Shown here piece by piece: positions 22,580-24,853 of a stretch of DNA of 38,809 nucleotides. The notes beneath the pieces are model-generated. The model was not told the origin of the DNA. It saw only the letters and a list, made by a program, of their open reading frames with translations, and made no database searches. The stretch is from positions 1-38,809 of the forward strand of contig DYFA01000064.1 of assembly GCA_020725425.1 (NCBI GenBank), read 5' to 3'. Both the position numbers and the translations under genes were made by a program. The DNA comes from Aneurinibacillus sp. Lineage in GTDB: Bacteria > Bacillota > UBA5301 > DYFA01. The first letter of the stretch is position 1, and each line of letters starts with the position of its first letter.

Positions 22580-23374
22580 TCACCCGGCCCGCAGCTTGAC
22601 CCGCAACTGGTCGGCGATCTTGGCGATCAACAGCGAATTCGACGGGAACTTCCCCTTCGTCGAAATCGCCGACTTCCCGACGATGCTCGAGATGTACGGC
22701 CGGTTCCCATGCTCCCAGGCAGTCAGGATGGCGTTCCGGATGGCCGCTTCCACGCCGCCGGTGGTCGTCCCGTATTTCTGGGCGATGCGCGGATAGAGGC
22801 TCTTGGTCAGGTTCCCGCCGAGGGTCGAATCCTCCTCCAAGACCATCATCACCGCATCGCGGATGTAGTTGTACCCCTTGAAGTGGGCGGGAATCCCCAT
22901 GAGATGGATGATCTCGGTCACCATGGTGAGCAGGTCCCGCTTTCCGGAAGCCACCGCCGGCGCGGTGAACTCCCCTCCCGCCCCCTCCTTGATGAGGGGC
23001 GCGGCATCCTCGGCGAACTGGCGGATGCGGGTCACCAGCACGTCCATGTCGAACGGCTTGACCACGTAGTAATCGGCGCCGAGCTGGGTCAGCTTCAGAA
23101 TCAGATCCTCGCGCCCGAAGGCGGTGAGAATAATGATCTTCGGCCGCCTGGACAGGTTGAGCGACGGCAGCCGTTCGAGCACTGCCAGCCCGTCCAACAC
23201 CGGCATCGTGATGTCGAGGATCACCACATCCGGCGTCTGCTCCTGGATCAGGCGGAGCGCCTGCTCCCCGTCGTAGGCGGTCCCCACGACTTCGATGTCC
23301 TCGAGTTTCTCAAAGAAGCGGTTGAGAATAGTGCACAATTCCACGTTATTGTCGGCGATGAGGACTCTAATCAC
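22580..23374 (-). CDS. spo0A: Sporulation master regulator Spo0A
   Basis: A 264-residue response regulator that, when phosphorylated, switches on sporulation. Receiver domain residues 1-125: phospho-acceptor Asp54 in VILDITMP, Thr84, and Lys106 in VVKPFD. The acidic pair near the N-terminus reads Asp8-Asn9 instead of Asp-Asp. The C-terminal Spo0A DNA-binding domain is intact (LTKSLYPRIAQKYGTTTGGVEAAIRNAI). I chose GTG at 23374, with AAGGAGG eight bases upstream. spo0A usually follows spoIVB in Firmicutes; here it stands between rsmB and the trxB-rlmN group. The upstream gap has a SigH-like promoter and a tandem palindrome, but no TGTCGAA box for autoregulation. Confidence 0.96.
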   Translation of the reverse strand: MIRVLIADNNVELCTILNRFFEKLEDIEVVGTAYDGEQALRLIQEQTPDVVILDITMPVLDGLAVLERLPSLNLSRRPKIIILTAFGREDLILKLTQLGADYYVVKPFDMDVLVTRIRQFAEDAAPLIKEGAGGEFTAPAVASGKRDLLTMVTEIIHLMGIPAHFKGYNYIRDAVMMVLEEDSTLGGNLTKSLYPRIAQKYGTTTGGVEAAIRNAILTAWEHGNRPYISSIVGKSAISTKGKFPSNSLLIAKIADQLRVKLRAG

Positions 23375-23410
23375 TAGCGAACCCTCCTTCGCGATCACCC
23401 TGGCGTAAGG

Positions 23411-23439
23411 AAGTTCTGTGCGGACCCAAGAATTCCTTT
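23411..23439 (-). promoter_or_regulatory. SigH-like promoter of spo0A
   Basis: On the minus strand: AAAGGAATT, 11 bases, ACAGAACTT. The -35 box fits RnAGGAwWW completely and the -10 box differs by one base (GAAC for GAAT). The predicted start near 23404 is 30 bases before the GTG. B. subtilis spo0A is also transcribed from a SigH promoter at sporulation onset. Confidence 0.6.
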
Positions 23440-23465
23440 CCCGGGGGAAAATTTTCCCAGGGGAA
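23438..23465 (-). promoter_or_regulatory. Tandem palindrome TTCCCnnGGGAA upstream of spo0A promoter
   Basis: TTCCCGGGGGAA (23438-23449) and TTCCCAGGGGAA (23454-23465) are separated by AATT. Each half is a 5+5 inverted repeat, and they start 16 bases apart, about one and a half helical turns. The first touches the -35 box of the SigH-like promoter. This is the layout expected of a regulator binding as two dimers; the protein is unknown. Confidence 0.55.
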
Positions 23466-23473
23466 TCCGCTTC

Positions 23474-24853
23474 TTAGACTTTCCGGCGCTCGAAGCAGGC
23501 GGCGAAGAATCCGTCCGTGCCGTGCCGGTGGGGCCAGAGGCGCAGGTACGGCCCGTTGAACGCCGAAGCGGTCCCGCCCGCGGCCACGCCCCGCTCGGCC
23601 AGGATCTCCCTGGCCGCCAGTACCACGAACTCGCCTCCCTGGTCCCGGAGAAAATCCTCCGCCACCTCCTCCCCCTCCTCCGGCTCCGTCGAGCAGGTGG
23701 AGTAGACCAGCCGGCCTCCGCGGCGCACAGTCTGCGCCACGGAGCGCAGTAACTGCCGTTGCTGGGCCGAAAGCGCCGCCACGTCGCCGGGTTCCTTCCG
23801 CCAGCGGGCATCCGGGCGGCGCCGCAGGACGCCCAAGCCAGTGCAGGGAGCGTCGAGCAGTGCGCGGTCGAAGGAGCGCGACCAGTCGGCCGCCTCCGCC
23901 AGCTCCAGGGCGCTCCTGAGCTCCGGGCGGACGCTCGAGAGCCCCAGCCGGGCCGCATTCTCGCTGATCAGCCGCAGCTTCCCCGGGTGCACGTCCAGCG
24001 CCCGGACTTCGCCCCGGTCGTCCATCAGTTCGGCCAGGTGGGTCGCCTTCCCTCCCGGGGCGGCAGCCGCGTCCAGGACCCGTTCCCCCGGCTCCGGCGC
24101 CACCAGGTGGGCGATGAGCATCGATGCTTCGTCCTGGACCTGGACCAGGCCCTTGGCGACCTCCGGGAGTTCCTCCACCGCGCCGCCCCGCGACCGGAGC
24201 ACGATCCCTTCCGGGACCCACCGCGAGGCCTCCGCCTCGACTCCGCGCTCCGCCAAGCCGGCGAGGACTTCCTCCCGGGAGGCGCGCCGCCGGTTGACCC
24301 GCAAAACCAGCGGAGGAGGCTGGTTGTTCACCGCCAGGAGCTCCGCCGTCTCGCCGAACCCCAGCCGGGCCAGCCACCGTTCGACCAGCCACTCGGGGTG
24401 GGACTCCCGTACCGCCAGGTGCTTCGCCGGTCCGCTCTCCGGGTCCGGCCAGGCGAGGTTGTCCCGGCCGCGCAGAAAGGCCCGGAGCACGGCGTTGACA
24501 AAGCCGGCGGTCCCCCGGTGGCCCCGGGTCTTGGCGATCTCCACCGCCTCATGACAGGCCGCCTCGGGCCGCACCCGCGTAAGGTACAGCATCTGGTACA
24601 GGGAAAGCCGGAGAAGGTTCCGCACCCAGGGGGCGAGGCTCCCCACCGGCCTCGTGGCGAACTGGCCGATCACCCAGTCCAGCGTCAGGCGGCGCCGGAC
24701 CACGCCGTAGACCAGTTCGGTGGCGAGGCCCCGGTCGGCCGCGGACAGCCCGGAGCGGGCCAGCGCCGACCCGAGAGCGAGGCTGGCGTAGGCGCCCCGC
24801 TCTTCAATGGCGCACAGCACCTCCAGGGCCAGCTCGCGGCTCCCCCGGCCCAC
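23474..24853 (-). CDS. rsmB: 16S rRNA (cytosine(967)-C(5))-methyltransferase RsmB
   Basis: A 459-residue enzyme. The N-terminal 130 residues are a NusB-like RNA-binding domain (LVYGVVRRRLTLDWVI); the C-terminal part is a Rossmann methyltransferase with the SAM motif VLDAAAAPGGKATHLAELM, the catalytic Cys in YSTCS, and the second Cys in LDAPCTGLGVLRRRPD. It forms m5C967 in 16S rRNA. The GTG at 24853 follows GGAGG. It sits at the end of the yicC-to-rsmB run; in B. subtilis rsmB also follows fmt directly, whereas two membrane-protein genes are inserted here. Confidence 0.95.
   Translation of the reverse strand: MGRGSRELALEVLCAIEERGAYASLALGSALARSGLSAADRGLATELVYGVVRRRLTLDWVIGQFATRPVGSLAPWVRNLLRLSLYQMLYLTRVRPEAACHEAVEIAKTRGHRGTAGFVNAVLRAFLRGRDNLAWPDPESGPAKHLAVRESHPEWLVERWLARLGFGETAELLAVNNQPPPLVLRVNRRRASREEVLAGLAERGVEAEASRWVPEGIVLRSRGGAVEELPEVAKGLVQVQDEASMLIAHLVAPEPGERVLDAAAAPGGKATHLAELMDDRGEVRALDVHPGKLRLISENAARLGLSSVRPELRSALELAEAADWSRSFDRALLDAPCTGLGVLRRRPDARWRKEPGDVAALSAQQRQLLRSVAQTVRRGGRLVYSTCSTEPEEGEEVAEDFLRDQGGEFVVLAAREILAERGVAAGGTASAFNGPYLRLWPHRHGTDGFFAACFERRKV

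Follow-up and report, generated by a model that had tools for sequence, protein, structure and literature searches.

A tandem palindrome beside the SigH-type promoter of an rsmB-linked spo0A paralogue: a candidate operator in a genome with two Spo0A-type genes

Two near-identical 12-base palindromes lie directly against the -35 element of a SigH-type promoter in Aneurinibacillus sp. (GTDB lineage Bacteria; Bacillota; UBA5301; DYFA01), and the gene behind this promoter encodes, to judge from comparison with related genomes, a second member of the Spo0A family. From their sequence and position the palindromes are a fair candidate for an operator and a plausible switch site. The pair of Spo0A-type genes, together with a conserved promoter carrying a 0A-type -10, is better supported than the operator itself. 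The window, i.e., the whole stretch of DNA analysed, comprises 38,809 nucleotides (assembly GCA_020725425.1, contig DYFA01000064.1, positions 1 to 38,809 of the forward strand), and the features discussed are the following.

22580 to 23374, minus strand: rsmB-linked Spo0A paralogue, 264 aa, receiver and Spo0A_C domains, GTG start set by orthologue alignment
23382 to 23389, minus strand: Shine-Dalgarno-like sequence AAGGAGGG, read by eye
23413 to 23416, minus strand: -10 element GAAC; the four bases before it are CACA, as against (T/C)GT(C/A) in most orthologues
23431 to 23437, minus strand: -35 element AGGAATT, SigH-type, its spacing kept in orthologues
23438 to 23449: promoter-proximal palindrome TTCCCGGGGGAA, read as TTCCCCCGGGAA on the minus strand, with 6-base arms counting flanks
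23445 to 23458: central overlapping perfect palindrome GGGAAAATTTTCCC, 14 bp
23454 to 23465: promoter-distal palindrome TTCCCAGGGGAA, read as TTCCCCTGGGAA on the minus strand
23474 to 24853, minus strand: rsmB, 16S rRNA m5C967 methyltransferase, the upstream gene, whose stop lies 8 bases before the distal palindrome

The two 12-mers, TTCCCGGGGGAA at 23438-23449 and TTCCCAGGGGAA at 23454-23465, are separated by AATT and both fit the motif TTCCCNNGGGAA with 0 mismatches. On the minus strand the AGGA of the -35 element begins at 23437, immediately after the last base of the promoter-proximal copy at 23438, hence the two abut, and the tandem reported in the preliminary description, with its AATT spacer and its place against the -35, is exact at 23438-23465. 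The pair sits within the 99-base gap (23375-23473) between rsmB, whose stop codon is at 23474-23476, and the spo0A-type gene, both genes being on the minus strand. GGGAAAATTTTCCC spans the junction and links both 12-mers, so that four alternating half-sites are a second way of reading the element. Compared by eye as two 16-mer units, the copies are identical at 12/16 positions, with the differences confined to the central NN and the linker of a motif that was defined after the units were seen. Taking AGGA together with the 45 bases that precede the -35 element, there are 6 inverted repeats with an arm of at least 5, a number reached in 56 of 5000 shuffles, and the longest single arm upstream of the -35 is unexceptional (P 0.072, shuffles).

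The protein encoded in the window is a member of TIGR02875 (297.8 bits, cut-off 200) and, like canonical Spo0A, combines a receiver with Spo0A_C. Unlike canonical Spo0A, its gene comes after rsmB and not directly after spoIVB, and its recognition helix carries G-E-A, not R-E-R. The spoIVB-linked spo0A of the same genome lies at G000:C40:42610-43341 in the gene order argR-like, recN, spoIVB, spo0A, steA-like, where spoIVB and spo0A were identified by family search, and argR-like, recN and steA-like are putative names based on sequence and place. Both Spo0A types are present in 7/7 genomes of the class, and two Spo0A_C proteins each were found in 13 further genomes recovered with the window protein, as well as in G026. 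The other Spo0A copy adjoins spoIVB in 20/20 genomes, and rsmB is upstream of the window-type copy in 19/20, with none in the stretch examined in G391. Across the phylum, a window-type Spo0A was found in 20 of 398 sampled genomes (E up to 1e-78). In a tree of 60 rows, one branch (99/81) sets the rsmB-linked proteins apart and another (96/76) does the same for the spoIVB-linked proteins, although in the latter group G002 and G004 are long branches of unsure placement. Judged by sequence and neighbourhood, the window gene is the rsmB-linked paralogue, in a clade of its own, and not the usual spo0A. The preliminary description had placed the palindromes at the spo0A promoter; that this is the spo0A which governs sporulation is not supported, the spoIVB-linked spo0A being elsewhere, on C40. 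Among open-licence full texts we found no description of an rsmB-linked and spoIVB-linked Spo0A pair, and the passages searched in PMC7924749 and PMC6136694 make no statement on two Spo0A proteins. One genome of the class, G006, has a third, divergent Spo0A-type gene (L160, G006:C184:31096-31803) directly after a second rsmB-like gene, with the helix ESVEAAIRGAL.

Three positions of the recognition helix separate the two kinds of protein. We take these key positions to be those of R211, E213 and R214 in B. subtilis Spo0A, with numbering and contact role as in the DNA complex 1LQ1. At the same positions the rsmB-linked copies have G-E-A (20/20), the spoIVB-linked copies x-E-R (20/20) and the reference Bacillota Spo0A rows R-E-R (17/18, the odd row, L093, having G-E-S), in an alignment of 60 rows in which the two rows of G026 and the third, divergent G006 copy stand outside the counts of 20. 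The helix as a whole reads (R)VER..RHAIE as against GGVEA..RNA in the rsmB-linked copies. The box recognised by Spo0A, TGTCGAA, is an asymmetric 7-mer of which G2, C4 and G5 are contacted, according to PMC3485338. Because the recognition helix is altered, it is doubtful whether the window Spo0A reads 0A boxes. In the tree, the protein with the G-E-S helix, L093 (G026:C10), branches as the sister of the rsmB-linked clade, and it is a possible intermediate.

The promoter had been called SigH-like, and the orthologues agree. AGGAATT and GAAC stand at the spacing of the SigH consensus, with a -10 of GAAC in the window, as against GAAT. When 200 bases were searched, AGGR-N17-GAA was found upstream of 16/20 rsmB-linked spo0A genes, including that of the window, compared with a mean of 0.97 and a maximum of 4 in 300 shuffles. 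With N17 or N18 allowed, the count rises to 20/20, of which one or a few may be chance given the null mean. The same two spacings precede spoIIAA in 17/20 cases, spoVG in 7/7 and the spoIVB-linked spo0A in 17/20. SigH itself is encoded in the genome, at G000:C38 (profile search, TIGR02859, 371.5 bits, cut-off 294.8). By comparison with its orthologues, the SigH-type promoter before the window gene is real.

The -10 region of the window, CACAGAAC, reads CACAGAA where most relatives have YGTMGAA overlapping the -10. At promoter spacing, this sequence, which overlaps the 0A box TGTCGAA, covers the -10 of 12 of the 20 rsmB-linked promoters surveyed (the 20 being those of loci L085, L163-L169 and L190-L201), compared with 4/20 for the spoIVB-linked spo0A, 0/20 for spoIIAA and 1/7 for spoVG. 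Counted by YGTMGAA with N13 alone the figure is 11/20 (shuffle mean 0.003), by the stricter NGTCGAA on the -10 it is 9/20, and exact TGTCGAA on either strand is present in 5/20, all of these counts coming from related genomes and so not representing independent events. The absence of a TGTCGAA box from the gap, also part of the preliminary description, extends to TGNCGAA, which is found on neither strand in the 199 bases upstream of the window start codon. Set against the orthologues, the missing 0A-type -10 of the window is a real lineage difference. Other relatives (G002, G215, G391 and others) are without the 0A-type -10 and also without the palindromes, which means that loss of the box requires no substitute. 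The nearest known arrangement is that of B. subtilis, where box 0A4 overlaps the -10 of the spo0A Ps promoter, as given in PMC12090719. Like Ps, the window gene is a spo0A-family gene with a SigH-type promoter, and 12/20 of its orthologues share the 0A4 layout, with 0A-type sequence over the -10; unlike Ps, the window promoter has no box, two palindromes stand upstream of its -35 and its gene is rsmB-linked, not spoIVB-linked.

Among the orthologous promoters compared, the palindromes are confined to this one genome. The preliminary description had proposed a search for the motif upstream of spo0A in relatives and across the genome. The first of these found the pair absent from 19/19 other rsmB-linked promoters (6 other class genomes and 13 further ones), all at class distance or further, the nearest belonging to the same class; a class-wide conserved operator is thus rejected. 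A lack of conservation in relatives, which the preliminary description had named as refuting its inference, is therefore what is seen at class distance and beyond, although genomes closer to the window would make the fairer comparison. Of 398 phylum genomes, 5, its own included, contain the tandem pattern when up to 2 mismatches are allowed, and a reversed control pattern is commoner, being present in 11 (both counted by eye). One relative, G391, has a different palindrome, GGTAAATTTACC, upstream of its -35, which shuffles match at P 0.126. G167 and G138 have inverted repeats (P 0.04 and 0.098) that run into the rsmB end in our own reading. These shuffles covered 16/20 promoters, with G309, G191, G330 and G372 left out because their -35/-10 pair was doubtful.

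Within the 2.38-Mb genome the exact tandem is found once, even allowing 3 mismatches. The genome-wide search for the single 12-mer gave 7 exact sites, both window copies included, against about 3.6 expected, and 130 sites at one mismatch against about 111 expected (both expectations scaled). The single-copy motif is therefore near its chance number, and it is not enriched at promoters. Five other exact sites exist: three in coding genes (C30, C50 and C52), one of unclear context at C11:11175 and one at C11:38807. The last (G000:C11:38807-38818, L118 position 3808) reads TTCCCCCGGGAA and is the sole clearly intergenic further copy. It is flanked by genes for a response regulator of LuxR type and an ABC permease (genes by eye), some 65-76 bases before the permease start in our own reading. 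Site counts and site contexts show no genome-wide regulon of the 12-mer, and we reject one; an operator with a single target would be compatible with this lack of enrichment. A phage origin of the tandem is likewise rejected (0 exact matches in viral_contigs). A literature search with the motif letters found no paper on bacterial regulation, judging by titles and the starts of abstracts.

We tentatively read the palindromes as a lineage-specific operator at a promoter without a 0A box, probably for a dimeric regulator that binds as a pair, and hold this reading to be close to evenly poised between right and wrong. Dimeric repressors and activators with tandem palindromic operators are known, e.g., of the MetJ/ribbon-helix-helix and TetR/QacR types. 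Like their operators, the window has two short near-identical palindromes, 16 bp from centre to centre, by the -35; unlike them, its palindromes show no regulon and are not kept in the relatives compared, which are of the same class or further away. Both palindromes would be occupied, side by side, by a transcription factor other than Spo0A that is dimeric or binds cooperatively. If transcription starts some 10 bases downstream of the -10, the centres of the palindromes would fall near -40 and -56, and a bound pair next to the -35 may contact or exclude SigH RNA polymerase, and so help or block it. The operator would have been added to, or have replaced, an older control in the window lineage, and the palindromes may have taken over from the lost 0A box. 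Control of entry into sporulation by such a regulator had also been suggested. The symmetric tandem at an operator-like place agrees with the regulator, but the sporulation part is unsupported and does not follow, because the window gene is the paralogue with the changed DNA-reading helix.

A neutral origin is a serious rival, somewhat less probable to us but still to be reckoned with. A palindrome that arose by chance near the promoter would have been doubled in a 16-bp tandem duplication, and no protein would bind there, as the agreement of the units at 12/16 positions and the near-chance number of single sites would lead one to expect. Tandem palindromes as such are not rare: with any arm sequence (arm 5, gap 0-4, links of at most 20) 2 Mb of Markov sequence yields 6 of them (~3 per Mb), and 724 kb of other loci contain 9 rows at 7 places, single-letter arms having been filtered out and overlaps between loci kept in. 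The exact form (gap 2, link 4) has 0 occurrences in these 2 Mb, which were generated from the window. The probability of such a tandem in one 99-base intergenic region is roughly 3e-4, and that of some such pair in the whole 38.8-kb window is about 0.1, which is unremarkable. That the palindromes are not kept at class distance also suits a neutral duplication. However, the units match everywhere outside the central NN and the linker, albeit for a motif defined with the units in view, and the position exactly against the -35 is that expected of an operator.

The operator may also belong to a larger change, in which the promoter was handed from Spo0A to a dimeric regulator via the tandem palindrome and the two-Spo0A sporulation circuit of the window lineage was rewired. 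The setting would be a deep-branching group of the Bacillota in which the spoIVB-linked Spo0A reads 0A boxes, and the rsmB-linked one has a rebuilt helix and a SigH promoter that is normally 0A-controlled. We regard this wider reading as rather unlikely.

The palindromes could instead act in RNA, as a 3'-terminal hairpin of the rsmB transcript serving as a stabiliser, a pause or a weak terminator. The 28-mer can fold on itself (CCCC..GGGAA-AAUU-UUCCC..GGGG), starting 8 bases past the rsmB stop, but it has no T tract, 0 intrinsic terminators were found in 23300-23560, and its folding is no better than that of shuffles (z 0.68 on the minus strand and -0.51 on the plus strand). The intergenic regions of relatives have no such hairpin (by eye). 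An intrinsic terminator and an unusual RNA structure are thereby both rejected, which makes a DNA site the simpler role, and an RNA element improbable. Autoregulation, in which the altered helix of the window paralogue would read the palindromes instead of TGTCGAA, draws on that change (G-E-A, 20/20) and is the least probable explanation, since 19 relatives share the changed helix at promoters without the palindrome, 12/20 rsmB-linked promoters retain the 0A-type -10, and the box that Spo0A is known to bind, a 7-mer without symmetry, is not a palindrome (PMC3485338).

If the palindromes are an operator, as in the reading that we tentatively favour, they would mark a point at which a Spo0A-type regulator came under the control of another protein. 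The finding of two Spo0A proteins, one with an altered helix and a conserved SigH promoter, is more solid and perhaps more useful than the palindromes. With two Spo0A-type genes in each of the 20 phylum genomes examined (three in G006), the usual picture of a single Spo0A with a single box fails for these organisms.
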